Below are positions 17,863-46,709 of a stretch of 64,000 bases of DNA, piece after piece; positions within the stretch are counted from its first letter, which is position 1, and every line of letters begins with the position of its first letter. The translations under genes were made by a program, and so were the position numbers. The stretch covers positions 1-64,000 of the forward strand of contig CANQGK010000001.1 of the NCBI GenBank assembly GCA_947623175.1. Reading direction: 5' to 3'. This stretch comes from an uncultured Clostridia bacterium. Lineage in GTDB: Bacteria > Bacillota > Clostridia > Oscillospirales > Acutalibacteraceae. A model generated the notes under the pieces. That model had not been told where the DNA came from. It was given only the letters and a program-made list of their open reading frames with translations, and did not search any database.

Positions 17863-18291
17863 GTGGAAAATCCGATACAAAAGCATATACAAAACGAAAA
17901 CGATTTAGACCTTTACGAAAGCTATTTAAAAGAAAATTTTCAAGGAAATCCGCAAACCGAAGTAATCGAAAAAGCGCCGGAAAGTCTGTCCATGCCCGCA
18001 GAGCCCTACGGCAAAAGCGTAAAATGCCGCAAAAGCACCGACGGCAATGCGGCGATTTCGACCGTCGGGCTTTCCGACGGATATCTGCGCCGGCAAACGG
18101 GTAAGCTTGTAAAGGTCGACTCGCTTATCGGCGGCAGAATCTGCGCAAAGGCGGGTATTTTGCTCGACGTCGGCGAGGATTATATAGTGATAAAGCCCAA
18201 TAAAAGCTGTCTCAGCATGATGATACCGACGGCGAACATCGAATACATTACGATAATACACGATAACGATATATCGAAAATATTCAATTAA
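17863..18291 (+). CDS. GerQ-like small protein (possible spore coat-associated)
   Basis: 142 residues. The first 75 residues are hydrophilic and low in complexity. The last 65 form a compact beta-rich unit (YLRRQTGKLVKVDSLIGG, VGEDYIVIKP, ANIEYITII) whose layout resembles the C-terminal domain of the spore coat protein GerQ. The resemblance is by eye, so the spore role is tentative. It starts with GTG after a GGAAGTG site. Its stop and that of the convergent pfkB gene share the palindrome TTAA (18288-18291), so no terminator separates them. Confidence 0.6.
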   Translation: MENPIQKHIQNENDLDLYESYLKENFQGNPQTEVIEKAPESLSMPAEPYGKSVKCRKSTDGNAAISTVGLSDGYLRRQTGKLVKVDSLIGGRICAKAGILLDVGEDYIVIKPNKSCLSMMIPTANIEYITIIHDNDISKIFN

Positions 18292-19178
18292 TTTAAAAGC
18301 TTCATAATTTCGTCCGCCTTAGCAAGCCCGTTTGACGCCGCCGTGGCGGCGCCTGCGGCGGCTCCCAGGCGAAGCGCATAATCGTAACCGCGCTCTATAC
18401 CCGCCAAAAATCCCGCAACCATAGAGTCCCCCGCGCCTACGCTGTTAAGCGCTTTTACCGGAAATGCCGCTACGGTACGGATTTTGCCAAATTCATCCGC
18501 CAATAACGCGCCCTCTTTTCCGAGAGAGACAAGCACGTTTACCGCTCCCATCTCCTTGAGGCGCAAAGCCGCGTTTTCGATTTCTTTATCGGAGGTAATT
18601 TTCACTCCGAAAATTTCTTCCAATTCAAAAATATTCGGCTTGATTAGGAACGGCTTATACTTTAAGGTGTTTATAAGCAAATTGCCCGAGGCGTCGATAA
18701 CAAAGCGTGCCGACTTATCGGACAGCTTATTTAAAATACGTTCGTAAATATTATCCGGCAGTGCTTTCGGTATACTGCCCGAAAGCACCAGGGTATCGCC
18801 CGGCAAAATGCGTTCAAGCTTATCCGTTAAAGCGGATAATTCGTTTTCCGCGATATCCGGCCCTTTGGCGTTAATTTCGGTTTCATTTGCACCCAAAAGC
18901 TTAACGTTTATGCGGGTAAAACCGCCGCCGAGCTTTATGAAATCGGAATTGACGCCGCTCTTTTTAAGCAAGTCTTCGAGATATTCGCCGCTGAAGCCCG
19001 CGATAAATCCGAGCGCCGTATTTTCGACGCCCAATTGCGACAATACGTAGGATACGTTTATACCCTTCCCGCCGAAGGTTATTTCCTCCCCCGCGGAACG
19101 GTTGAGCACGCCCGGCGTTATGCCGTCAACCCTCATACCGTAATCCAGCGCGGGATTAAAGGTTACGGTGTAAATCAT
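18288..19178 (-). CDS. fruK: PfkB-family sugar kinase, 1-phosphofructokinase-like
   Basis: Phosphorylates a sugar phosphate, most likely fructose 1-phosphate or tagatose 6-phosphate. 296 residues. PfkB signature 1 appears as GGKGINVSYVLSQLG near residue 36. Signature 2 with the catalytic Asp appears as VGAGDSMVAGFLAG near residue 249. The ATG is preceded by GGAGGTGA. It lies 27 bases after aroF on the same strand and is probably the last gene of the aromatic operon, an odd partner. No PTS fructose transporter or DeoR regulator accompanies it here, so the substrate is uncertain. Confidence 0.82.
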   Translation of the reverse strand: MIYTVTFNPALDYGMRVDGITPGVLNRSAGEEITFGGKGINVSYVLSQLGVENTALGFIAGFSGEYLEDLLKKSGVNSDFIKLGGGFTRINVKLLGANETEINAKGPDIAENELSALTDKLERILPGDTLVLSGSIPKALPDNIYERILNKLSDKSARFVIDASGNLLINTLKYKPFLIKPNIFELEEIFGVKITSDKEIENAALRLKEMGAVNVLVSLGKEGALLADEFGKIRTVAAFPVKALNSVGAGDSMVAGFLAGIERGYDYALRLGAAAGAATAASNGLAKADEIMKLLN

Positions 19179-19204
19179 TTTTTCACCTCCGATTTAAGCC
19201 GGCT

Positions 19205-20236
19205 TTACTTTAAGCTGTCGGCAATCGAATAAATCAAATCGCGGGATTTTTCCCATCCGAGGCACGGATCGGTAATCGACTTTCCGTAAATATGCTCGCC
19301 GATTTTCTGGGCGCCGTCCTCGATATAGCTTTCTATCATAAGTCCCTTTACCATTTTGCGTATGTCGCCGTTATAATTACAGCTGTGGATTACGTCCCCG
19401 GCAATTCTTATCTGTTCAAGATACTGTTTGCCGGAATTTGCATGGTTTAAGTCCACAAGCACCGAAGGATTGGCAAGCTCGGTTTTATCATAAAGCTCAC
19501 GAAGATTTATAAGGTCCTCATAATGATAATTGGAAACGTTTTTGCCCGCATAATCGGTATAGCCGCGCAAAATTGCGTGAGCGTACGGATTTCCGGCGCT
19601 TTTTACCTCCCAACCGCGATAAATAAAGGTATGCCTGTGCTGTGCGGCGGTGATCGAATTCATCATAATCGACAAATCGCCTCCGGTCGGATTTTTCATA
19701 CCGACGGGCACCTCGATACCGCTGGCGGTAAGTCGGTGCTGTTGATTTTCCACCGAACGAGCGCCTACCGCCACATAACCCAAAACGTCGGATAAATAGC
19801 GGTAGTTTTCGGGATAAAGCATTTCATCTGCGCAGGTAAAGCCGTAAAGGGTAAGCGCCGACATATGCAGATCTCTTATGGCTATGATACCCTTTAACAT
19901 ATCGGGATTTTCGTCGGGATCGGGTTGATGAAGCATACCCTTGTACCCGTCGCCCGTGGTGCGGGGTTTGTTGGTATAAATTCGCGGGATAATGAATATT
20001 TTATCCTTTACCTCCTCCTGAATCAGGCGAAGGCGTGAAATATAGTCGAGCACCGCTTCGCGGTTATCGGCGGAGCATGGGCCTATTACAAGTATAAATT
20101 TATTGCTTTCGCCGCTGAAAATGCTTCGTATCTCGCAAGCTCTTTTATCCCGTATTTCGGTCAATTCCTCCGTCAGCGGATAGCGGTTCTTGATCTGCTG
20201 CGGTATGGGCAGTTTTCTTATAAATTCCATTTTCAT
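19205..20236 (-). CDS. aroF: 3-deoxy-7-phosphoheptulonate synthase, class I (DAHP synthase)
   Basis: First enzyme of the shikimate pathway, condensing phosphoenolpyruvate with erythrose 4-phosphate. About 343 residues, AroFGH type. Visible motifs include VIGPCSADN, PRIYTNKPRTTG with the substrate-binding KPRTT, GVKNPT-like GMKNPTGGD, and the metal-binding His near DLNHANSGK. The start is ambiguous. The frame opens with a TTG at 20248 one base after an AAAGGA site, ATGs follow at 20236 and 20230, and the best-spaced triplet after the Shine-Dalgarno is an ATT at 20242. Ninth gene of the aromatic operon. Feedback type cannot be assigned from sequence. Confidence 0.95.
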   Translation of the reverse strand: MKMEFIRKLPIPQQIKNRYPLTEELTEIRDKRACEIRSIFSGESNKFILVIGPCSADNREAVLDYISRLRLIQEEVKDKIFIIPRIYTNKPRTTGDGYKGMLHQPDPDENPDMLKGIIAIRDLHMSALTLYGFTCADEMLYPENYRYLSDVLGYVAVGARSVENQQHRLTASGIEVPVGMKNPTGGDLSIMMNSITAAQHRHTFIYRGWEVKSAGNPYAHAILRGYTDYAGKNVSNYHYEDLINLRELYDKTELANPSVLVDLNHANSGKQYLEQIRIAGDVIHSCNYNGDIRKMVKGLMIESYIEDGAQKIGEHIYGKSITDPCLGWEKSRDLIYSIADSLK

Positions 20237-20263
20237 AAAAATCTTCAAGTCCTTTTGAAATAT

Positions 20264-21121
20264 TTATACTTTATCAAACAAGCCCCGACGTTCGGTCGAC
20301 AAGCGCATCATATCGCGGATGCCTTTTCGGTCGTCGTTTTTTATTTTATCGTAAAGCTCGTCAAAGGTGCTTTTAAAACGATCCATTTCGTTAAGTAATG
20401 CCGCTTTGTTGCTCAAAAACAGTTCGCTCCACATCTCGTCGTTGATGCGGGCAATTCGCGTCAAATCCCTGAAAGAGTCGCCGGTATATTTTTCGAGTCC
20501 TTCCGAATTATTACAGCACATAAGCGATATGGCTATACAGTGGGTAAGCTGTGACAAAAAGGCTATCATCTCGTCGTGCTCCGATACGCTCAGCTCGGCT
20601 ATCTGCTTAAAGCCTAAAATTTCACCGAGGCTTCGACATAATTCTATGGCTTCGGGGGTGTTCTTTTCGGTGGGAACCACGATATAGTTTGCCGCATGGA
20701 AAATAGCGTCGTCGCTGTTTTGCACGCCCGCGACTTCTTTACCCGCCATGGGGTGCGCGGCTATAAATTCGACGTCTTCGCGCAGCATATCCTGAACTTT
20801 ATAAACTACGCTTCCCTTAACGCCGGTAACGTCGGTCAAAATACAACCGCTTTTAAAATATTGCTGATATTTTGCTATCCAATCGACAAAAATATGCGGA
20901 TAAAGGGCGAAAATAACCAAATCCGCCTTAGCTATGATATCCGGCTCTATTTCGGTGGTGCCGTAATCTATCATGCCGTTTTTAAGTGCATAATCCACCG
21001 AAGAGCGGCTTTTTGTGATGGCGCTTACCGAAAAGCCCATTTTTTTAAGCCCCTTCGCGTAGCTGCCGCCCAAAAGCCCCAAACCGACTATCAAAATATC
21101 TATTTTTTTAATTAGCTTCAT
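20264..21121 (-). CDS. tyrA: Prephenate dehydrogenase
   Basis: Oxidatively decarboxylates prephenate to 4-hydroxyphenylpyruvate, the tyrosine branch. 285 residues, a monofunctional TyrA without fused chorismate mutase or C-terminal ACT domain. The Rossmann motif GLGLLGGSYAKGLKKMG starts near residue 12. AAHPMAGKE and SQLTHCIAISLM carry conserved substrate-site residues. It overlaps the aroA stop by four bases (ATGA). The lack of an ACT domain suggests that tyrosine control acts mainly through transcription of the operon. Confidence 0.94.
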   Translation of the reverse strand: MKLIKKIDILIVGLGLLGGSYAKGLKKMGFSVSAITKSRSSVDYALKNGMIDYGTTEIEPDIIAKADLVIFALYPHIFVDWIAKYQQYFKSGCILTDVTGVKGSVVYKVQDMLREDVEFIAAHPMAGKEVAGVQNSDDAIFHAANYIVVPTEKNTPEAIELCRSLGEILGFKQIAELSVSEHDEMIAFLSQLTHCIAISLMCCNNSEGLEKYTGDSFRDLTRIARINDEMWSELFLSNKAALLNEMDRFKSTFDELYDKIKNDDRKGIRDMMRLSTERRGLFDKV

Positions 21122-22332
21122 AATTCCTTTTTCACCTCTGAAATAATGCCGAGCGCGGATATGCGTTCAAAAAAATCGGGAAAGCTCTTGCTTACCGCTT
21201 CGGCGCCGACAATTTCGCCCGACGTCACAGACGCCAAAACCGCGAGCGCCATAACTATGCGGTGGTCGTTATGACCGTATAATTGCGCCGTCGGCGTTTT
21301 GAGAACCGTTTTCGGAACAGTAATTTTATTATCCTCTACGGAAATATCGCATCCGAACTTTGCAAGCTCGGTTTTCATAGCCTCACCGCGGTCGCTCTCT
21401 TTGATTTTAAGCCGGCGCGTACCGGTAAAGACGGCGCCGTTTTTTGCGGCGGCAATCGCCATAAAAATCGGGCCTAAATCGGGGCAATCGGATATATCTA
21501 CCGTAGGACAGCCGCGTTCGAGCAGGGGAAAAATATCCTTATACACTCTGTCGCCCTGAGCGGTATTTTTAAGCAGTCCGCTTACGTATACGTTGCCGCC
21601 GAAAAGGTTAAATGCGTCCAAAAAGGCGGCGTTCGAATAATCGCCCTCAACGCCTATTGTGCGGTTTTTACATTTTTGACCGCCATTTATATATATGGTT
21701 CGCTCGTCCTTACGGCTTATTCTCACTCCGAATTTTGCAAGCGCGTTTATGGTGAGGGATAAATAGGAAGCGCTTTCTATATTCCCCGTAATTTCGATTA
21801 CGCTGTCCTCCGGGAGGGCGGACAGCGCGAATATGAGTCCGCTTATAAATTGGCTCGAGATATCCCCTCTTACCGAATATTTTCCGCTCAAAAGCCTTCC
21901 CTTAAGGGTTACGAAATCCTTGCCTTTTTCGAATTTTATCCCCTGCGTTTTGCAAATCTGCTCGTAAACGTCGAGCGATCTCTGAAATAATCTTTCGCTT
22001 CCGTAAAGGGTTATTTCCTTATCGAAAAGCAGGCAGATAGGAATCAGAAACCTAAGGGTGCTCCCGCTCTCAAAACAGTTTAATCGGTCGGATTTAAGCT
22101 CGCCGTTAAAATCGAGCCCGCCAATACTTACGCTGTCGGAAGAAACGGCGATTTCCGCTCCCAACCCCTCAAGACAGGAAATCGTCGCCTCCATATCTTT
22201 GGAAGCGCTTATCCCGCGAATAACGCTTGTCCTCGAAAGCGCGCCGCAGATGAGATATCTGTGCGCCATGCTTTTTGAGGGGGGCGCTTTTACCCTGCCG
22301 GCGGCTTTGCTTTTTTCTATTCTTACAGTCAT
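21118..22332 (-). CDS. aroA: 3-phosphoshikimate 1-carboxyvinyltransferase (EPSP synthase)
   Basis: Transfers enolpyruvate from PEP to shikimate 3-phosphate. 404 residues, slightly short for the family. PPSKSMAHRYLICGAL near residue 17 holds the conserved Lys/Ser/Arg substrate contacts. ESGSTLRFLIP corresponds to the PEP-binding loop, whose usual NAGTxxR core is GSTLR here, as in many class II-like enzymes. RLKIKESDRGEAM and GHNDHRIVMA are the C-terminal signatures. The gene overlaps aroQ by four bases and tyrA by four bases. Confidence 0.95.
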   Translation of the reverse strand: MTVRIEKSKAAGRVKAPPSKSMAHRYLICGALSRTSVIRGISASKDMEATISCLEGLGAEIAVSSDSVSIGGLDFNGELKSDRLNCFESGSTLRFLIPICLLFDKEITLYGSERLFQRSLDVYEQICKTQGIKFEKGKDFVTLKGRLLSGKYSVRGDISSQFISGLIFALSALPEDSVIEITGNIESASYLSLTINALAKFGVRISRKDERTIYINGGQKCKNRTIGVEGDYSNAAFLDAFNLFGGNVYVSGLLKNTAQGDRVYKDIFPLLERGCPTVDISDCPDLGPIFMAIAAAKNGAVFTGTRRLKIKESDRGEAMKTELAKFGCDISVEDNKITVPKTVLKTPTAQLYGHNDHRIVMALAVLASVTSGEIVGAEAVSKSFPDFFERISALGIISEVKKEL

Positions 22333-22769
22333 GTATTACCCTCGCAGTAGGCCTTTAAAAACTCCAAAGCTTCGATATAGCCGTTTATGCCGTGACCGGT
22401 TATGGTCTTGACGCAGGCAGACCTTACGTAGCTTATCCTGCGAAAATCCTCACGCTTTGAAACATCCGAAATATGCACCTCCACGGTGGGTATTCCCACC
22501 GCCTTAAGCGCGTCGAGCAAAGCGATACTTGTATGGGTATAAGCGCCCGGGTTGATCACTATACCGTCATAGACGCCGTACGCCGCCTGAATTTCGTCGA
22601 CAAGCGCGCCCTCGTGATTTGACTGAAAAAGCTCTGTTTCAATTCCCGACCGCTCTGCGTAATTTTTAATATTATCACAAAGGGTTTCGAAGCTGTCGGT
22701 TCCGTAAATGCCCGGCTCGCGTATTCCGAGCATATTGATATTCGGCCCGTTAATTACCAAGAATTTCAT
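22329..22769 (-). CDS. aroQ: 3-dehydroquinate dehydratase, type II
   Basis: Removes water from 3-dehydroquinate. 146 residues, the type II dodecameric family. NGPNINMLGIREPGIYG near residue 7 contains the catalytic Arg/Tyr loop, NPGAYTHTS carries the conserved Asn and His region, and EVHISDVSKRE the second His. It overlaps the preceding aroE-aroK gene by 20 bases, indicating coupled translation. Confidence 0.96.
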   Translation of the reverse strand: MKFLVINGPNINMLGIREPGIYGTDSFETLCDNIKNYAERSGIETELFQSNHEGALVDEIQAAYGVYDGIVINPGAYTHTSIALLDALKAVGIPTVEVHISDVSKREDFRRISYVRSACVKTITGHGINGYIEALEFLKAYCEGNT

Positions 22770-24003
22770 TTATATAAGCCTCCTCCAATCGTTTTATATC
22801 CATCTCGTCGTATTTATTTACTTTGAGTACAAAGTCCGCCGAGGACAGGTATATGCCGTACCTTTCTTTGTACCTTAATTCCAGATCCTTACGACTGCTC
22901 GATAAAGGGCGGTCGTCGGTGGAAATTAAAAACTCAAGCGGTCGGTCTATGAAAATCAGACTGCCGTTTTGCTTTAAAAGGTCGACGTTTTCCTGTCTTA
23001 AAACCGCGCCGCCGCCGGTTGCGATAACGCAATTTTGTTTTGCCGCCGTCTGCTTTATTACGCGGCTTTCGTATTCTCTGAAGGTGTCGACGCCCTCTTT
23101 TGAGATTATTTCGGGTATCGAAGCTCCGACGTATTTTTCGATTTCCTCGTCGGTATCGATAAATTCCTTGGAAAAATCCTCGGCAATGCGTTTCCCCATG
23201 GTGGTTTTACCGCAGCTCGGCATACCCGTAAGGACGATATTGTGTTTATTTGTATAAATCTTTTTATAAACCGACTCGGTTATAGAATAGTCAAATTCGG
23301 TATCGATAAATTTTTCCGCCGCAAATACCGCCTGCGATACAAGCATATAAAGCCCGCCCGTCGCCGGTATTCCCCGCTTTTTCGCGTCAACGACAAGCGC
23401 GGAGCTTAAGGGATTGTAAATAACGTCTATTACGCCGCAAAGCTTAGAAAAGGCGGAAATATCCAAAGGCTTCTCGCCTATTTTCGGGTACATGCCGCAG
23501 GGCGTCGTATTGATTATTATTTCGGTATCGCGATAAGCCTCATAAAGCTCGTTATAGGTAATAAGCCCCTTGCCGCCCGATCTTGAAACGCGGTGAATTT
23601 CGGATGCGCCGAGGCTTTGTGCCGCGGCGTATGCGGTTTTGGAGGTGCCGCCGCTGCCCAAAATCGCGACCTTTTTGTTTTCAAGCGAAATTTTTTCCCT
23701 GTTTATCAAGGCGCAAAGCCCCGAAAAATCGGTATTATAGCCGTATAATTTTCCGTTTTTATTGACAACGGTATTAACGGCGCCGATTTTCTCGGCTATA
23801 GTGTCGATTTTGTACAAATAGGGTATTACCGCTTCCTTGTAAGGAATTGTAACGTTAATCGCCTTAAAATCCGCCTTTTTCATAAAGTCGGGCAGCGCTT
23901 CGCGCGCAACCTCGACAAGCCGGTAATCGTAATCTGCCAACTCGTTATGTATAATTTTTGAAAAGCTGTGCGACAGCCTTTCGCCTATACAACCGTACTC
24001 CAT
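22750..24003 (-). CDS. aroE-aroK: Bifunctional shikimate dehydrogenase / shikimate kinase fusion
   Basis: One 417-residue polypeptide for two successive steps. Residues about 1-255 are shikimate dehydrogenase: SHSFSKIIHN substrate site, NVTIPYK with the catalytic Lys, NTDFSGL with the catalytic Asp, and GSGGTSKTA NADP loop. Residues about 256-417 are shikimate kinase: Walker A GMPSCGKTT, FIDTDEEIE, FREYES and TGGGAV. The frame extends 34 codons further upstream into aroC, but the ATG at 24003 overlaps the aroC TAA by one base and starts the conserved domain directly. A fusion of consecutive enzymes is established for some Clostridia and fits the operon logic. Confidence 0.95.
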   Translation of the reverse strand: MEYGCIGERLSHSFSKIIHNELADYDYRLVEVAREALPDFMKKADFKAINVTIPYKEAVIPYLYKIDTIAEKIGAVNTVVNKNGKLYGYNTDFSGLCALINREKISLENKKVAILGSGGTSKTAYAAAQSLGASEIHRVSRSGGKGLITYNELYEAYRDTEIIINTTPCGMYPKIGEKPLDISAFSKLCGVIDVIYNPLSSALVVDAKKRGIPATGGLYMLVSQAVFAAEKFIDTEFDYSITESVYKKIYTNKHNIVLTGMPSCGKTTMGKRIAEDFSKEFIDTDEEIEKYVGASIPEIISKEGVDTFREYESRVIKQTAAKQNCVIATGGGAVLRQENVDLLKQNGSLIFIDRPLEFLISTDDRPLSSSRKDLELRYKERYGIYLSSADFVLKVNKYDEMDIKRLEEAYINEILGN

Positions 24004-25094
24004 TATTTTACCAACCAATCCGTTCCGAAGCTTCCGCATAACATATCGCATAAAACCAATGCCGTAACGCTGTCTACTACAACCCGGGCTCTGTGCACTA
24101 TGCATGGATCATGTCTGCCGCCGGCGGCAAGCTCGGTATTTTCGTGAAGCTTGATATCAACCGTATTTTGCATACGGCATATTGTCGGGGTGGGCTTTAC
24201 GGCGCATCTGAAAATAATCGGCATTCCGTTGGTAATGCCGCCGTTTATGCCGCCGTTATTATTAGTCTTGGTGCAAACCTTGTCGTTTTCGTAATAAAAC
24301 TCGTCGTTTGACTCGCTGCCGTGCAAATCCGATATGGCAAAGCCCGCGCCGAATTCTACGCCTTTTATTGCGGGAATTGAAAAAAGCGCATGTGAAAGCA
24401 TACCTTCAATCGTATCAAACCAGGGCTCGCCTACTCCCGCCGGCATACCCGTAACGGCGGTTTCGAGTATACCGCCTACGCTGTCGCCCTGTCTTTTTGC
24501 CGCAAGTATCGCCGATTGCATTTTTTCGGCGGCGCCGTCGTCTAATACGGCAAAGGCTTTTTTGTTAAGCAAATCGATATCCGTGCTTAAATTGTCAAAG
24601 CCCTTATCGTCCGTACCGGCACAGCGGGCAATATGGCTGCCTATAAATATCCCCTTGTCCCTCAGCGCACTTATTAAAATCGCGCCCGCTGCAGTCAGCG
24701 CGGCGGTAATTCTTCCGCTGAAATGTCCGCCGCCGCGATAATCGGCAAAACCGTGATATTTTGCAAAAGCCGTGAAATCGGCATGTCCGGGGCGCATTTT
24801 ATACTTAATTTCACCGTAGTCCTTAGACTTGGTATTTTCGTTGGGAATAAGAATACATATCGGCGTACCGGTGGTATACCCCGCGAAAACGCCGCTTTCT
24901 ATTACGAATTTGTCCTGCTCGGTACGCGGCGTGGAAATCGCGCCGACAGGACGGCGCAAATCGAGCTGTGAAGCGATAAAAGCCTCGTCCACGGCTATTC
25001 CCGGAGCTACGCCGTCAAGCACGGCTCCGATACCCGTGCCGTGACTTTCGCCGAAAATAGTCAGCGATATATTATTTCCGAATGTGTTTTTCAT
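24003..25094 (-). CDS. aroC: Chorismate synthase
   Basis: Converts EPSP to chorismate using reduced FMN. About 363 residues. GESHGTGIGAVLDG near residue 15 and RPGHADFTAFAKYHGFADYRGGGHFSGR near 95-125 are the family signatures, with the later DVKLHENTE-like and RHDPCI stretches. The start is the ATG at 25094, which overlaps the aroB TGA by one base and follows a GAGGTGG site by seven bases. A TTG one codon upstream is less likely. Confidence 0.96.
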   Translation of the reverse strand: MKNTFGNNISLTIFGESHGTGIGAVLDGVAPGIAVDEAFIASQLDLRRPVGAISTPRTEQDKFVIESGVFAGYTTGTPICILIPNENTKSKDYGEIKYKMRPGHADFTAFAKYHGFADYRGGGHFSGRITAALTAAGAILISALRDKGIFIGSHIARCAGTDDKGFDNLSTDIDLLNKKAFAVLDDGAAEKMQSAILAAKRQGDSVGGILETAVTGMPAGVGEPWFDTIEGMLSHALFSIPAIKGVEFGAGFAISDLHGSESNDEFYYENDKVCTKTNNNGGINGGITNGMPIIFRCAVKPTPTICRMQNTVDIKLHENTELAAGGRHDPCIVHRARVVVDSVTALVLCDMLCGSFGTDWLVK

Positions 25095-26104
25095 CAATAA
25101 TCCACCTCTTTGAGCTCCTCGGCAAAGCGGTCGAAGGGTACGGTGTGCATTTCGTATTTTCCGACTTCGCCGACGTAAGTTAAGGTAATATCGCTGCCAG
25201 ACATTTTTTTATCGTGACGCATAGCGTCTGTTATTTTTTGTTTGTCACAGTCTATCCTTGTCGGAAGATTAAGCTTTTTAAGTACCGGCAGAAGTCTTTT
25301 TCTCACTTCCTCGGAGCACACCGGTATCATGCCTAAAGCGACGCATTCGCCGTGGTATAGATTTTGCATTTCGTTTACGCTTTCGATAGCGTGCGCCAGA
25401 GTATGGCCGAAATTAAGAATTTTTCTTAAACCCTTTTCCTTTTCGTCGGACTCTACGACCTGCCGTTTTATCTTTATCGAAGCCTCGATAATTCGGTCGA
25501 TATTTTTTTCGATATCCTCATTTTCAAAAATCGAAAACAGCTCGCCATCGCTTGTGAGCGCCATTTTGACCGATTCGGCAAGTCCGTTTGAAATTTGTCT
25601 TGCCGGCAGGGTTTTAAGGGTATCGGAATCGATTATAACCGCTTTCGGCGGATAAAAAGCGCCCACGATATTTTTATAGCCCGCGAAATCTATCGCAACC
25701 TTGCCCCCTACAGAGGAGTCCACCTGCGAAAGTACGGTAGTGGGTATGTTGTAAAAATCTATGCCGCGCATATAGCTTGCGGCGACAAAGCCGGAAAGGT
25801 CGCCTACAACGCCGCCGCCCACCGCCACAACGGCGTCACTGCGGGTAAAGCCGTACTCCACCAGCTTTTCGAGCAGCATTTTATAGGTATCGAAGCATTT
25901 TGAGGTCTCGCCCTCGTTTACCGTTACGATATACGCCTCGCGGCACTGCGCCGCCGCCGCTTTTGCATACTCCGAGGGCACACCGCTGTCGGTAACCACG
26001 AGAACGCGCCTTTTAAGCTTTAAATAGTCGTTAAGCCTGTAAAGCGCTCCCCGCTCTAAGACTATATCATATCCCCCGCTTGAGGTTTTTACCGGAATAA
26101 CCAT
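25094..26104 (-). CDS. aroB: 3-dehydroquinate synthase
   Basis: Cyclises DAHP to 3-dehydroquinate with NAD and a divalent metal. About 336 residues. NEGETSK, the glycine-rich GGGVVGDLSGFVA, and the metal-ligand segments NFGHTLAHAIE and YHGECVALG are visible. The frame opens at a TTG (26116), but a GGAG site inside that stretch sits six bases before the ATG at 26104, which I take as the start. Third gene after the aminotransferase in the aromatic operon. Confidence 0.95.
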   Translation of the reverse strand: MVIPVKTSSGGYDIVLERGALYRLNDYLKLKRRVLVVTDSGVPSEYAKAAAAQCREAYIVTVNEGETSKCFDTYKMLLEKLVEYGFTRSDAVVAVGGGVVGDLSGFVAASYMRGIDFYNIPTTVLSQVDSSVGGKVAIDFAGYKNIVGAFYPPKAVIIDSDTLKTLPARQISNGLAESVKMALTSDGELFSIFENEDIEKNIDRIIEASIKIKRQVVESDEKEKGLRKILNFGHTLAHAIESVNEMQNLYHGECVALGMIPVCSEEVRKRLLPVLKKLNLPTRIDCDKQKITDAMRHDKKMSGSDITLTYVGEVGKYEMHTVPFDRFAEELKEVDY

Positions 26105-26118
26105 ACCAAACTCCAATT

Positions 26119-27207
26119 TTATAATGATATTTCTTTTTCGAAATTTCCCACGACACGCAGTTCACTGCAGTGCCGTTTAAGCTCTTCGAGCATTTTTCGG
26201 CCCTTGGGGCTGTTGACGTTGCCCTCGCCCTCCACAAAGAAATAATAGCTCCAGATAAGCTCCTTTGTAGGTCGGCTTTTAAGCGCTTTCAAATTAAAGC
26301 CGTTATCGCCGATAACCGAAATCGCCTTGCCGAGCGAACCCGCTTCGTTGGAAACGGTAAAAAGCATTATAAAGTGATTGTCCGACTCACTGCCCGCTTT
26401 TGCCGTACGGGAAAATACCGCAAAACGGGTAGTGTTGTTATTGCTTTCGTTTATATGCGCCTCAAGCTTTTTAAGTCCGAATTTTTCGGCGGCTTCCTCG
26501 CTTGCTATAGCGGCAATATCATGTCTGCCCGACTCGGCGACCAGCTTTGCCGCAACGGCGGTATTGACGGCTTCCTGTTTTTCAAATCCGTGCTTTTTGA
26601 TATAAGCCGCGCATTGACCCAACGCCTGCGGATGGCTTATAACCGTTTTGATTTCGTCCATGGACGTGCCCTTTACCGCCAAAAGGTTTTGCACGACGTC
26701 GATATCGTAAATTCCGTTTATGTAAAGCGAGCCGAAAAAGGTAAGATCCATAACTTGTCCCACGTCGCCGTTGTAGCTGTTTTCGATAGGCAGAATCACG
26801 CAGTCGCACTCGCCGTTTTCAACCGAGGAATAGGCGGATTTAAAATCGGGATACGGCACCGCTTCGGCGTCGGGAAAAACACGGTTCGCGGCGATATTGG
26901 CAAAGGCGCCCTCGACTCCGCTGAAGGCGACCCGCATGCCCTGCATAAGCCGGTGCTGATAATTTTTGGAAATATCGATATTGCTTTGCAAAAAATTTAT
27001 ATAAAAGGACTTAAGCTCCTCGTCCTTTATATACTCGGCGTTTCGGCGTATGATCTCACCCTCGCGCGCCGAATCGTATATTTTCATCCCGTGCTGTTTT
27101 TTATATTCGGCAACGGCGCGCACCGCCTTCATCCGCTCGGAAAATAAGCGCGCCATTTCCTTATCTATATCGTTAATGGCTTGTCTTGCGTTGTCAAGCT
27201 CGGTCAT
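26119..27207 (-). CDS. pheA: Chorismate mutase / prephenate dehydratase (P-protein)
   Basis: Bifunctional enzyme of the phenylalanine branch. About 362 residues. The N-terminal AroQ-type chorismate mutase helices (1-85, with ARQAINDIDKEM) are followed by prephenate dehydratase (about 95-275, containing NNTTRFAVF with the catalytic Thr-Arg-Phe). A C-terminal ACT domain (GSLGKAISVIGDNG and the KSRP version of the ESRP motif) binds phenylalanine in this family, so feedback inhibition is likely. The ATG at 27207 is chosen because an AGGTGA site overlapping the stop codon of the preceding gene is four bases upstream. Confidence 0.96.
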   Translation of the reverse strand: MTELDNARQAINDIDKEMARLFSERMKAVRAVAEYKKQHGMKIYDSAREGEIIRRNAEYIKDEELKSFYINFLQSNIDISKNYQHRLMQGMRVAFSGVEGAFANIAANRVFPDAEAVPYPDFKSAYSSVENGECDCVILPIENSYNGDVGQVMDLTFFGSLYINGIYDIDVVQNLLAVKGTSMDEIKTVISHPQALGQCAAYIKKHGFEKQEAVNTAVAAKLVAESGRHDIAAIASEEAAEKFGLKKLEAHINESNNNTTRFAVFSRTAKAGSESDNHFIMLFTVSNEAGSLGKAISVIGDNGFNLKALKSRPTKELIWSYYFFVEGEGNVNSPKGRKMLEELKRHCSELRVVGNFEKEISL

Positions 27208-27211
27208 AACT

Positions 27212-28396
27212 TCACCTGTATTCTTCAATAAGTTTTTTAAATCTGTCAAGCGATTTTTCAATCATTTCGGTGCCTACGCAATAGCTTATACGCACGTAGC
27301 CCTCGTATCCGAAATCGTCCCCCGGAACAATCAAAATTTCATAACCCTTCGCGCGTTCGCAAAATGCGGCGGCGTCCGGCTCGGGCGATTTTACAAAGAG
27401 ATAAAAAGCGCCGTCGGGGCGTACCGCGGTATAGCCGTATTCGCACAGAGCGTTATAAAGCAGATTGCGGTTTTTGTCGTAAACCGAAATATCGGAGGTT
27501 TTGCCCAAGACCTCTTTTACGGTGTACTGCAAAAGGCTCGGAGCGCAAACGTAGCCAAGCGCTCTGCCGGCGCCGCAAACGGCGGCGTACAAATCCCCGC
27601 AGTTTGTCGCCCTCGGTGAAACGAAAATATAACCGATACGCTCGCCGGGAAGAGACAAGGATTTGCTGAACGAATAGCAAACGACGGTATTGTCGTAAAA
27701 ATTCGGTATATACGGCACCGCAACTCCGCCGTACACAAGCTCCCTATAAGGCTCGTCAGCTATTATGTAAATATCGGTACCGTATTCGACGGATTTTTTG
27801 TTAAGTAATGCCGCCAGCTTTATAATCGTGTCCTCACTTAAAACCGCTCCGCTCGGATTGTTTGGCGAATTGACGATAATACCCTTGGTTTTAGGCGAAA
27901 TTACCCTTTCAAGCGCTTCAAAATCGATTTGAAAATCGGGTTCACTGCATTTAACTACCCTCGTTACGGCTCCCGCCTTTTCGGCGAATACGGTATATTC
28001 GGGGAAAAAGGGCGCCAAAAGAATTATTTCATCCGTCGGATTTACTATAGCGTTAAGGGTGATGGTAAGCGAAGCCGCCGCGCCGCAGGTCATATAAATA
28101 AGGTTGGGATCGGATTTTGCGCCGAAGGTCGAGGCGATATATTCGGCGATCGCGGCGCGTACGCCGGCGTCGCCCTGGGCGGAGGTATAGCTGTGAAGTT
28201 CCATCGGAGATTTGGTTTCAAGCAGTCGCTTTATGGTATCGGTAACGATTTGCGGAGCGGGTATGCTCGGATTGCCAAGGCTGAAATCAAATACATTATC
28301 CGCCCCTATTTCTTTACGCCGCAAATTGCCGTATTCGAAAATTTCGCGTATAACGGAACGCTTCTTGCCCAATTGAGTCATTTTTTCGGAAATCAT
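27212..28396 (-). CDS. Class I/II aminotransferase, probable aromatic aminotransferase
   Basis: PLP-dependent transaminase, first structural gene of the aromatic operon. 394 residues, fold type I. NSPNNPSG at 176-183, ADEPYREL with Asp214, and the PLP Schiff-base Lys245 in SFSKSLSLPGERIGY. By family it could act on aspartate or aromatic keto acids. Its position directly in front of pheA and under the Phe/Tyr leader argues for transamination of phenylpyruvate and hydroxyphenylpyruvate, or of prephenate. The ATG follows a GAGAGGAAGAG site. Confidence 0.88.
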   Translation of the reverse strand: MISEKMTQLGKKRSVIREIFEYGNLRRKEIGADNVFDFSLGNPSIPAPQIVTDTIKRLLETKSPMELHSYTSAQGDAGVRAAIAEYIASTFGAKSDPNLIYMTCGAAASLTITLNAIVNPTDEIILLAPFFPEYTVFAEKAGAVTRVVKCSEPDFQIDFEALERVISPKTKGIIVNSPNNPSGAVLSEDTIIKLAALLNKKSVEYGTDIYIIADEPYRELVYGGVAVPYIPNFYDNTVVCYSFSKSLSLPGERIGYIFVSPRATNCGDLYAAVCGAGRALGYVCAPSLLQYTVKEVLGKTSDISVYDKNRNLLYNALCEYGYTAVRPDGAFYLFVKSPEPDAAAFCERAKGYEILIVPGDDFGYEGYVRISYCVGTEMIEKSLDRFKKLIEEYR

Positions 28397-28434
28397 AAAT
28401 CTCTTCCTCTCAAGTCATGTTTAATTATAAAAGA

Positions 28435-28474
28435 GCCCGCAACTCGCATACGTTAAAGTATGACAATTGCGGGC
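28435..28474 (-). terminator. Intrinsic terminator of the aromatic-operon attenuator
   Basis: On the minus strand GCCCGCAA pairs with TTGCGGGC, and inside it CATAC pairs with GTATG around a TTTAAC loop. The strand then reads CTCTTTTATAATT. This is a strong rho-independent terminator placed 13 bases after the leader-peptide stop codon and 38 bases before the aminotransferase ATG, the expected position of an attenuator. Confidence 0.9.
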
Positions 28475-28487
28475 CGACCGTATAAAG

Positions 28488-28571
28488 TTAAAAAGCATTT
28501 TTAACCGGGTAGAGACAGTCCGTTTTTTTAAAAAAATAAAAGTAATAAAAGAAATATCTTGATATACTCAC
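28488..28571 (-). CDS. Phe/Tyr leader peptide of the aromatic operon (27 codons)
   Basis: A short reading frame starting GTG at 28571, preceded by a strong AGAGGTGA site 6 bases upstream and ending TAA at 28490-28488. After MSISR come nine aromatic residues in a row, YFFYYFYFF (codons 6-14), then a mixed tail ending Asn-Ala-Phe. The frame lies between a near-consensus promoter and an intrinsic terminator, upstream of the genes for Phe and Tyr synthesis. By analogy with the pheA and trp leaders of enterobacteria, ribosome stalling on the aromatic run when charged tRNA-Phe or tRNA-Tyr is scarce would prevent the terminator from forming. The frame and its features are visible; the mechanism is inferred. 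Confidence 0.85.
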   Translation of the reverse strand: MSISRYFFYYFYFFKKTDCLYPVKNAF

Positions 28572-28585
28572 AAACTGTCACCTCT
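28505..28585 (-). promoter_or_regulatory. Leader RNA pairing arms of the aromatic attenuator
   Basis: On the minus strand GAGGTGACAGT (28584-28574, covering the leader Shine-Dalgarno) can pair with ACTGTCTC (28519-28512) just after the aromatic codons, enclosing them in a hairpin. A second hairpin, GTTAAAAA-TGC-TTTTTAAC (28506-28488), ends at the leader stop codon. GACAGTTTG can alternatively pair with CAATTGTC in the 5' arm of the terminator. Such mutually exclusive pairings are expected for attenuation. Which one is the antiterminator I cannot decide by eye. Confidence 0.6.
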
Positions 28586-28593
28586 AAAGTAAT

Positions 28594-28622
28594 ATTTTAC
28601 CTTAACGTCAAAAATTTGTCAA
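28594..28622 (-). promoter_or_regulatory. Promoter of the aromatic amino-acid operon
   Basis: Minus-strand perfect -35 TTGACA (28617-28622), 17-base spacer and -10 TAAAAT (28594-28599). Transcription would start near 28587, only a few bases before the leader-peptide ribosome binding site. Confidence 0.88.
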
Positions 28623-28683
28623 GCGTGAATTTATACAAACTTTAACGGTTTAAAGTGTTAAAATCTATACAATTATCGGGCTG

Positions 28684-29706
28684 TTATTTAATTTCAAGCT
28701 CACGTATCGAGCGAAGCTGATAATCGACGTTTTTAAGCAGACTCTTTTTCTTAAGAGCTACAGCCGCGCCCTTTACGACGCTGTAGGACGGGTTTTCCAT
28801 GGTATGTACCTTAATTCCGAGATATTTTGATATTTTTTCCGGCAGACCGCAAAGCTGTGAGCCGCCGCCCGTCAGATAAAATCCGTCATCCGTAATATCC
28901 GCCACAAGGTCGGGATCGGTTCTGTTAAGCACCTGTCTAATACCGTCGCAAACGGAGTTTACCGTTTCGTTAATGGCGTCGTAAACCTCGCCGCTTGAAA
29001 TTTCAAAGCTTTCGGGCAAGCCGGTGAAAACGTTTCTGCCTTTTGCAAGGACGGCTACTTCGATATCCCGCTTTACCGCCGCGCCGATTTTAATTTTAAT
29101 AAATTCTGCCGTGAGCGGGCCTATTTCGATATTATACTCCTTGCGGACGTATCTTGCTATTTGATTGTCAAAATCGAGCGACGCGATTTTTAAAGAGTCG
29201 CAAACCGTAATTCCGCCCATGGATATTACGGCGATATCGGTGGTACCCGCGCCGATGTCCACAATAAGGGTGCCGTGGGGAGTTTCGGTATCTATCCCCA
29301 GACCGAAGGCTACGGCAAGCGGACCCTCTACCACGGAAATATTTCTGCCGCCCGCCGATTCAAGCAAATTTGCGAGCGAATGGTGCTGTAATTCGGTAAG
29401 ACCCGCCGGCAGTGTGGCGAGTATTCGCGGTCTGAAAATTTTGTTGCCGAAGGCGGTGTTCATATATTTTTTGAGCATTGCCTCCGCTATTTCGTAATCG
29501 GCGATAACTCCGCGTTCTATAGGGCTTACGCAAATCAGGCTGTCCGGCGTTCTGCCGAGCGTTTGCTTTGCCTTTTCGCCGAAATAAATCGGCTCGTAGG
29601 TTTCGGCGTCCACCGTGACCATATTATCCATTTCGAGTATGATTTTCGTACTTGAAAAAATCACGGTTTTGGAGGTGCCTATATCTATTCCGATGTCTGT
29701 TGCCAT
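28684..29706 (-). CDS. mreB: Rod shape-determining protein, MreB/Mbl family
   Basis: Actin-like filament protein that guides lateral cell-wall synthesis under the membrane. About 340 residues. Phosphate 1 motif DIGIDIGTSKTV at the start, phosphate 2 motif LIVDIGAGTTDIAVISMGGI near residue 150, and the adenosine motif LTGGGSQLCGLPEKI near 290. A GGAG inside the first codons of the longer frame precedes the ATG at 29706 by six bases, so I use that start. No mreC or mreD follows, so it may be an Mbl- or MreBH-type paralogue. Same strand as comF and recD2, 54 bases after comF. Confidence 0.92.
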   Translation of the reverse strand: MATDIGIDIGTSKTVIFSSTKIILEMDNMVTVDAETYEPIYFGEKAKQTLGRTPDSLICVSPIERGVIADYEIAEAMLKKYMNTAFGNKIFRPRILATLPAGLTELQHHSLANLLESAGGRNISVVEGPLAVAFGLGIDTETPHGTLIVDIGAGTTDIAVISMGGITVCDSLKIASLDFDNQIARYVRKEYNIEIGPLTAEFIKIKIGAAVKRDIEVAVLAKGRNVFTGLPESFEISSGEVYDAINETVNSVCDGIRQVLNRTDPDLVADITDDGFYLTGGGSQLCGLPEKISKYLGIKVHTMENPSYSVVKGAAVALKKKSLLKNVDYQLRSIRELEIK

Positions 29707-45993: not shown

Positions 45994-46007
45994 TAAAAAA
46001 GTAAACT

Positions 46008-46101
46008 CAGAATAGACAGTCTTGCGTTAAGTGCTTATCGGACGGGGAGTTGCCGGTAGGACGAAGGATTTTCCCACGGTTTGACTGTCGCATCCCGCTG
46101 A
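46008..46101 (+). ncRNA. Tetrahydrofolate (THF) riboswitch
   Basis: Conserved THF aptamer segments are present in order: GCGTTAAGTG (46024-46033), GGGGAGTTGCCGG, AGGACGAAGG, CACGG and GCATCCCGCT near the 3' end. The closing stem pairs AGACAGTC with GACTGTC across the aptamer. A GAATAAT/ATTATTC stem (46103-46140) follows before the AAGGAGG ribosome binding site (46156-46162) and is a candidate expression platform. The placement before a folate-type ECF S component matches the known association of this riboswitch class with folT. Reduced folate is expected to lower expression. Confidence 0.85.
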
Positions 46102-46169
46102 CGAATAATCGGTTTATGGCGTTATACCTTCTTATTATTCGAAAATCGGGTAATTAAGGAGGTATTTTT

Positions 46170-46709
46170 ATGCAAAAAAATTCCCAAATTGTAAAAATCT
46201 GTTTTTGTGCCGTAATGGCGGCGCTTTATACCGGTCTCGATTATATTGCGGTATCGTTAAGCGCGCCCTTCGGCGGAACCATGAAGCTGTCGGTAAGCGG
46301 AATCGTAATTATTATAGCCGCAATAATGTACGGCCCCTTATGGGGCGGCGCCGTAGGCTTCGTCGGCGCGTTTTTGGGGCAGATTATTACCTACGGCTTT
46401 ACCGCGACCACGCTTTTATGGGTTTTGCCCGCGGTGGTACGGGGAATAGTATTCGGTCTGCTTTTCATTCTTTTCAAAAGAAGCCTTAAAACCTATATAC
46501 TCTGCATCGAAACGGTTATAAGCGCCCTTTTGGTTACGGCGGTCAATACGCTTGTTATGTATATCGACGCGAAAATATACCGCTATCCCGTCGCTTTATT
46601 CGGCATAGCGCTTGCAAACCGAATAATCGCCGCCGTAATCACCTCTATAATTTTTGCGGTTTTACTGCCCCTTATTATAAAGGGCTTAAAGCGTATATTG
46701 TTACGATAA
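46170..46709 (+). CDS. folT: Folate-type ECF transporter S component (FolT-like)
   Basis: Substrate-binding membrane subunit of an energy-coupling-factor vitamin importer. 179 residues, six predicted membrane helices. The segment LSVSGIVIIIAAIMYGPLWG, with the following GGAVGFVGAFLGQI, is typical of FolT/BioY-like S components. The THF riboswitch upstream makes folate the likely substrate. The shared EcfA1-A2-T module is not in this window and would be encoded elsewhere. Strong AAGGAGG site before the ATG. Confidence 0.88.
   Translation: MQKNSQIVKICFCAVMAALYTGLDYIAVSLSAPFGGTMKLSVSGIVIIIAAIMYGPLWGGAVGFVGAFLGQIITYGFTATTLLWVLPAVVRGIVFGLLFILFKRSLKTYILCIETVISALLVTAVNTLVMYIDAKIYRYPVALFGIALANRIIAAVITSIIFAVLLPLIIKGLKRILLR

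Follow-up and report, generated by a model that had tools for sequence, protein, structure and literature searches.

A candidate Phe/Tyr leader-peptide attenuator before an aromatic amino-acid operon in Clostridia

In Firmicutes, tRNA-sensing control of amino-acid genes usually takes the form of T-boxes, and the leaders of the enterobacterial pheA and pheST genes are known for Phe codons only. Aromatic genes of low-GC Gram-positives are reportedly the subject of Panina (2003), and attenuation in proteobacteria that of Vitreschak (2004). The accessible passages of one article name the enterobacterial pheA and pheST systems as attenuators and list phenylalanine under attenuators and tyrosine under T-boxes (PMC1262725), and a Tyr T-box is described before the tyrosine operon of the B. 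cereus group (PMC2494555). According to the accessible parts of the articles concerned, branched-chain leader attenuators occur in Staphylococcus and Listeria (PMC5794164, PMC5864092), his leaders are reported in bacilli (PMC2965389), and candidate his attenuators have been described in Eubacteriales, including C. difficile (PMC9413887). The his leader attenuators of Eubacteriales and Erysipelotrichales are patchy in their distribution, and in one case a horizontal transfer of operon and attenuator was suggested (PMC9413887). Since leader-peptide attenuation has thus been reported in Firmicutes, including Clostridia for histidine, the mechanism itself is known. The uORFC-13-1 motif is a leader frame with a promoter, a Shine-Dalgarno (SD) sequence, at least one Phe codon and a terminator before aroF, for which attenuation was proposed; its 24 representatives come from Acholeplasma and environmental sequences, and the accessible text does not mention Tyr (PMC8632094).

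The leader region and its operon

The window, the whole 64 kb stretch of Clostridia DNA analysed here, had been predicted to carry, on its minus strand, a near-consensus promoter, a ribosome binding site, a 27-codon frame with nine consecutive Tyr/Phe codons, alternative pairing arms and a terminator 38 bases before the first gene of a complete aromatic amino-acid operon. The elements of this leader are as follows.

28594-28622, minus strand: promoter, TTGACA at 28622-28617, a 17-nt spacer and TAAAAT at 28599-28594; 11 of 12 consensus positions
28579-28585, minus strand: leader SD AGAGGTG, read from the sequence
28566-28585, minus strand: region 1, the SD and start-codon stretch, predicted partner of region 2 (MFE fold; duplex and partner-swap tests)
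28488-28571, minus strand: leader peptide frame VSISRYFFYYFYFFKKTDCLYPVKNAF and stop; 27 codons, GTG start at 28571, stop at 28490-28488
28530-28556, minus strand: nine consecutive Tyr/Phe codons, YFFYYFYFF, the proposed sensor (pattern count)
28508-28522, minus strand: region 2, CGGACUGUCUCUACC, within the leader frame, predicted partner of region 1 or region 3 (fold, swap tests, alignment)
28470-28484, minus strand: region 3, UAUACGGUCGGCCCG, running into the 5' arm of the terminator, putative antiterminator with region 2 (swap tests, alignment)
28423-28475, minus strand: intrinsic terminator, stem 28475-28435 and U-rich tail (folding, covariation)

A short frame with an SD is therefore present at the sequence level between the promoter and the first gene, and the promoter, the ribosome binding site and the frame were found as predicted, the frame being right in its coordinates, length and aromatic run. 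The TTGACA-17-TAAAAT sequence is the top-scoring of 16 promoter-like matches in a scan of 18000-28800, although this number of matches is what chance would give (mean 16.1). The nine-codon Tyr/Phe pattern occurs once in the 64 kb and in none of 100 shuffles. The 161-nt leader is more stable than its shuffles (z -5.1), none of 200 being equally stable. The terminator stem is directly followed by UCUUUUAUAA, and the distance from its end to the aminotransferase ATG (28396) is 38 bases, as predicted. A simple terminator scan did not list the leader terminator, for which the interrupted stem and broken U run are the reading given, and its identification therefore rests on folding and covariation.

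The genes behind the leader were assigned from NCBIfam and Pfam matches.

27212-28396, minus strand: PLP-dependent aminotransferase, the first structural gene (NCBIfam PRK06836, 546.8 bits against a cutoff of 376)
26119-27210, minus strand: pheA, chorismate mutase and prephenate dehydratase (CM_2 and PDT above Pfam cutoffs; below NCBIfam cutoffs)
25094-26116, minus strand: aroB, 3-dehydroquinate synthase (above NCBIfam cutoff)
24003-25097, minus strand: aroC, chorismate synthase (above NCBIfam cutoff)
22750-24105, minus strand: aroE-aroK fusion, shikimate dehydrogenase and shikimate kinase (above Pfam cutoffs; below NCBIfam cutoffs); the true start is probably inside this frame
22329-22769, minus strand: aroQ, type II 3-dehydroquinate dehydratase (above NCBIfam cutoff)
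21118-22332, minus strand: aroA, EPSP synthase (Pfam domain above cutoff; below NCBIfam cutoff)
20264-21121, minus strand: tyrA, prephenate dehydrogenase (Pfam domain above cutoff; below NCBIfam cutoffs)
19205-20248, minus strand: aroF-type DAHP synthase, TIGR00034 (above NCBIfam cutoff)

These nine aromatic genes, close-packed on a single strand, make up the complete shikimate-to-Phe/Tyr operon that had been claimed. A 1-phosphofructokinase-type pfkB gene (18288-19178, minus strand) lies 26 nt behind aroF and is possibly co-transcribed with the operon.

Leaders of relatives and their pairing regions

An aminotransferase match was present in 97 of 99 related genomes, many of these matches being distant paralogs. 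The locus set was assembled from an ortholog search, region fetches and a scan of named contigs, which gave 107 loci, 91 of them distinct once 16 duplicates with identical last 250 nt had been removed; two of these (L024, L027) have no upstream sequence, which left 89 loci, and a partial ortholog in G045 is outside the set. A leader was scored where an SD, a run of at least three F/Y/W residues, at least four aromatics and a start 130-215 nt before the gene occurred together. By this criterion 48 of the 89 loci have a leader, and the 41 without one comprise nine of the same genus, six from other families of the order and 26 named contigs. The chance level of the criterion (SD, run of at least three, fixed distance) is 36 in 1920 dinucleotide shuffles; a stricter form (run of at least five, at least six aromatics) is satisfied by 22 of the 48 real leaders and by 0 of 1920 shuffles.

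The original prediction had named orthologous operons without an aromatic-rich frame as evidence against it. Within the genus, 38 of the 47 orthologs with upstream sequence keep the leader by this criterion and nine do not. By eye, five of the nine (L015, L017, L020, L022, L023) have the gene directly after a mreB-like gene and in two (L006, L008) a short spacer contains an SD but no leader frame; L090 (G029) has a terminator-like hairpin further upstream, and L095 is the ninth. In L008 (G021) the aminotransferase frame also has an in-frame TAG as its codon 12. Most of the named relatives are assemblies from the gut of ruminants or other animals. Four loci on contigs titled Aeromonadales, Bacteroidales or Bacteroidia (L063, L067, L069, L070) have aminotransferases that are 55-58% identical, which reflects either transfer or wrongly named bins.

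In 47 of the 48 leaders a hairpin of -15 kcal/mol or lower precedes T's (the exception is L005), the hairpin picked by the scan in L010 and L049 being other than the terminator. Because the distance of region 1 from the start codon differs between leaders, swap tests took the place of covariation on the MAFFT alignment for this region. In these tests, which do not model the tree and cover 47 leaders (L058 has no anchor and was left out), the native 2:3 duplex averaged -18.5 kcal/mol against -15.2 (sd 0.43) with swapped partners, and the native 1:2 duplex -16.3 against -12.8 (sd 0.39); in both cases 0 of 2000 swaps reached the native value. The same was true of 28 representatives with less than 75% similarity, for 1:2 and 2:3 alike, and of the 31 leaders outside the alignment (L142 left out), where the values were -18.8 against -15.5 for 2:3 and -17.0 against -12.7 for 1:2, again with 0 of 2000 swaps each. 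Single leaders give examples of the pairing: in L030, AGAGG and AGACAG of region 1 face CCUCU and CUGUCU of region 2, and GGACUGUCUU pairs with AAGACAGUCC in the 2:3 helix, for which L026 has GCGGACC with GGUCCGC, L102 has GGACUUUCUGU with ACAGAAAGCCC (one A-C mismatch) and L154 has GGACUACC with GGUAGUCC.

On alignment A1, which holds 45 of the 48 leaders (L049, L057 and L058 were left out), 78.5% of the cells of the 2:3 helix are paired, compared with 23-40% in slid registers, and for the terminator helix the figures are 89.6% and 37-53%; one terminator pair is C-G in 22 of the 45 leaders and U-A in 16. Two of the five covariation measures were less clear for each helix (35/500 and 144/500 shuffles for 2:3; 11/500 and 40/500 for the terminator). 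The slid 2:3 controls have a similar number of double changes, and inner 2:3 positions are often mismatched, pair 84/162 being formed in 11 of 45 leaders and pair 80/166 in 22 of 45. RNAalifold on the alignment gave the terminator only and did not predict the 2:3 helix. Taken as a comparison of sequences, these results support three helices, namely 1:2 (the leader SD with region 2), 2:3 (the antiterminator) and the terminator. The pairing arms of the original prediction thus beat partner swaps, the comparison of orthologous leaders that it had proposed finds regions 1, 2 and 3 changing together, and its terminator is backed by both fold stability and covariation.

In the MFE structure of the window leader the full terminator forms, and it still forms when region 1 is removed. 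In partial transcripts that end in the 5' arm of the terminator, this arm is held by region 2 in 47 of 47 leaders. Because the complete terminator wins in the MFE fold and RNAalifold gives the terminator alone, antitermination must be kinetic; a kinetic choice between structures is a feature of known attenuators. In the window 43 nt separate region 1 from region 2, with the aromatic run in between. The stop codon is 5-28 nt past region 2, with a median of 20, in 46 of the 47 leaders (one more was dropped from this count); it is at most 15 nt past region 2 in 19 of the 46 and farther in 27, including the window's leader (20 nt).

Distribution and possible movement between families

The recurrence of the aromatic-rich frame at this place, on which the original prediction depended, extends across ten families when leaders are sought with a covariance model. 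The model finds the window copy in its own genome at E 2.4e-24 and no second leader copy there, the next-best match having E 0.008. In overlapping genome samples, matches with E<1e-5 were found in 35 of 394 genomes of the order, in 7 of 391 of the class (four of them new, adding three further families) and in 2 of 398 of the phylum (none new), which gives 39 sampled genomes. Eight matches at E<=1e-3 fall outside the class, none of them below 1.6e-4. In all 39 the gene directly downstream is an aromatic one (18 times the aminotransferase, 13 times pheA, 8 times aroF). The leader frame is seen by script in 36; in G100 and G174 it lies farther from its SD, and G495 has an interrupted aromatic run. 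An RNA element without an Rfam match can now be searched for with this model.

The weaker matches are mixed and were kept outside the count of 39. In three of the six examined, an aromatic gene is preceded by an aromatic leader frame, so the absence of a model match does not imply the absence of an attenuator. Two of the three (L189 in G196, L198 in G136) precede an aminotransferase. The third (L168; G216:C8:39528-39690, minus strand), from a different genus of the window's family, combines the frame MCHATGLFYNGFCSYYFSKGYFCCDKD with a terminator-like hairpin, and the gene directly behind them is a B. subtilis-type DAHP synthase, which differs in type from aroF; this locus is perhaps a diverged or an independent aromatic leader attenuator. 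G181, G388 and G614 have no aromatic leader frame at their weak matches.

Identities to the window's PheA and KsgA were compared across one shared sample of 147 genomes from the order. In 17 leader-bearing genomes of other families the medians are 64% for PheA and 42% for KsgA, whereas in other genera of the window's own family, which have no model match, they are 34% and 55% (7 of 8 sampled genomes with a PheA match, some of these matches partial). There are exceptions among the leader-bearing genomes: G131 has its leader before aroF and a PheA of only 34% identity, and G074 and G082 have KsgA identities of 54-56%, so vertical descent is sufficient for both. The disagreement of the two proteins suggests horizontal transfer of the operon together with its leader, and ancient paralogs with differential loss may be an alternative to transfer. 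A reading of operon and leader as a mobile cassette is also weakened by G216, evidence that a second genus of the family can have its own leader-like element. We regard as evenly balanced, for and against, the full proposal that one homologous Phe and Tyr attenuator, present in at least ten Clostridia families, moved between families with its operon, remained at the head of the operon as the first gene was exchanged and acts as a switch with three states, of which only that with a ribosome parked between the leader SD and region 2 opens the operon. If the mobile-cassette reading is true, a classical attenuator would be reading Tyr and Phe codons in genomes that have T-boxes for Trp genes and PheRS.

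The proposed switch, its alternatives and known systems

Our results make it very probable, on comparative sequence evidence, that the leader is a ribosome-mediated transcription attenuator reading the supply of charged tRNA-Phe and tRNA-Tyr; most likely it would let the bacterium turn on these genes only when Phe or Tyr is scarce. When either charged tRNA is scarce, the ribosome would be held in the aromatic run and would fill the 43-nt stretch between regions 1 and 2, which would block the 1:2 pairing. Region 2 would then be free to pair with region 3, whose 3' end is the 5' arm of the terminator, and the polymerase would read into the operon. With ample Phe and Tyr, the ribosome would cross region 2 and leave, region 2 would be masked or recaptured by region 1, and the terminator would form. 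Since more than 15 nt often separate region 2 from the stop codon, it is doubtful that a ribosome at the stop would cover region 2 in many leaders, and recapture by region 1 after ribosome release seems the more likely route to termination than masking at the stop. In a leader that is not translated, the 1:2 helix would form at once and the terminator too. Of these states, only the one with a ribosome stalled in the run would open the operon; the 1:2 helix would, in addition, close the SD of the leader itself.

Several other explanations have to be considered. The leader could be a plain constitutive terminator or a small RNA between mreB and the aminotransferase gene with an aromatic frame that is accidental, as the leader is T-rich, like Phe and Tyr codons themselves, and the nine orthologs of the same genus scored as leader-less would fit such an accident. 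We consider this very improbable, however, because shuffles seldom yield such a frame, because frame, SD and run recur in ten families despite a changing downstream gene, and because regions 1, 2 and 3 covary. A functional small hydrophobic peptide acting in trans is a similarly slim prospect. It would account for the conservation, in many leaders, of a D-C-L stretch after the run, but this stretch is encoded by RNA region 2 and changes together with region 3, and both the length of the peptide and its Phe and Tyr residues, which replace each other between leaders, vary. As region 2 lies inside the frame, directly after the aromatic run, the conserved D-C-L looks like a by-product of the RNA. 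That the attenuator senses mainly one amino acid, the first codons of the run deciding and the others being filler, is unlikely, though the ribosome stops at the first starved codon and leaders differ in their order of F and Y. Among the 1114 residues of the 48 leaders are 182 Phe and 176 Tyr, Trp codons are absent, the longest run includes both Phe and Tyr in 47 of the 48, and the operon makes both amino acids.

Control by a T-box or a metabolite riboswitch would be in keeping with the eight T-box matches of the window's genome (L108-L115, five of them above cutoff), including those before pheS and trpE, but can hardly be credited at this locus. At the window leader no Rfam family reaches its gathering score, T-box family RF00230 included, and only chance-level matches (E 5-9) were obtained; a T-box or riboswitch there was accordingly rejected. 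The Rfam families of enterobacterial amino-acid leaders gave no gathering-score match in the window or at ten leader loci of relatives, where the only Rfam matches, an L10 leader (L122) and a tRNA (L124), lie away from the leader. Nor was a T-box found as a substitute in 18 loci searched to 1500 nt upstream of the matched gene, 12 of them pheA loci (L189 and L198 among these have a leader) and six of them leader-less aminotransferase loci (L006, L008, L015, L020, L022, L023, of the nine in the genus). The sole Rfam match in the 18 was a SAM riboswitch in L023 (2883-2977), downstream of the aminotransferase gene.

For seven of the T-box matches (all but L114), the first long frames behind them, mostly partial sequences that score below cutoffs, have pheS, asnS, leuA, thrS, TrpX, trpE and ilvB as their best matches; the trpE T-box, at 90.7 bits, is just below its 93-bit cutoff, and that of ilvB is weak (36 bits). 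Judging from these matches, T-boxes appear to control the Trp genes and PheRS, and the leader the Phe/Tyr operon. One genome would thus divide the work between a leader peptide, over the whole Phe/Tyr operon, and T-boxes, matched before pheS, trpE and the gene of a Trp transporter. Elsewhere in the window a THF riboswitch (46006-46102, plus strand, 77 bits) lies 67 nt before the frame 46170-46709; among NCBIfam families this frame is best matched by the folate ECF transporter S component, with a score slightly under the cutoff.

A mixed Phe/Tyr leader attenuator was found neither in Rfam nor among the matches listed in our searches of the mostly non-subscription literature. Within the literature searched, the mechanism proposed here is of a known kind, and its specificity, geometry and host range were not found described. 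If the attenuator reading is right, the family offers natural variants that bear on the combination of Phe and Tyr signals, on the role of SD sequestration in attenuation and on the question of an attenuator moving with its operon. Judged by the accessible text description, the Clostridia leaders are set apart from uORFC-13-1 by their Tyr codons and their hosts, yet 8 of the 39 loci are also directly upstream of aroF and the two may be the same family (PMC8632094). The his leaders of Eubacteriales and Erysipelotrichales likewise represent leader-peptide attenuation in Clostridia, but for histidine and his operons (PMC9413887), and those of Staphylococcus and Listeria represent it in Firmicutes, sensing branched-chain amino acids instead (PMC5794164, PMC5864092), as far as the accessible passages describe them. 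The Tyr T-box of the B. cereus group does the same job in distant relatives with a tRNA-binding RNA that has no leader peptide (PMC2494555). The architecture that had been likened to enterobacterial leaders stands in its leader, run, antiterminator and terminator; its geometry differs from that of the textbook trp case, in that the leader's own SD serves as region 1 and the stop codon is reached only past region 2. The Clostridia leaders resemble those of enterobacterial pheA and pheST in their aromatic run, competing hairpins, intrinsic terminator and downstream genes of Phe biosynthesis or PheRS, and they differ from them in the lack of an Rfam match, in the mixture of Phe and Tyr codons and, in the window, in standing before a whole shikimate-Phe-Tyr operon.
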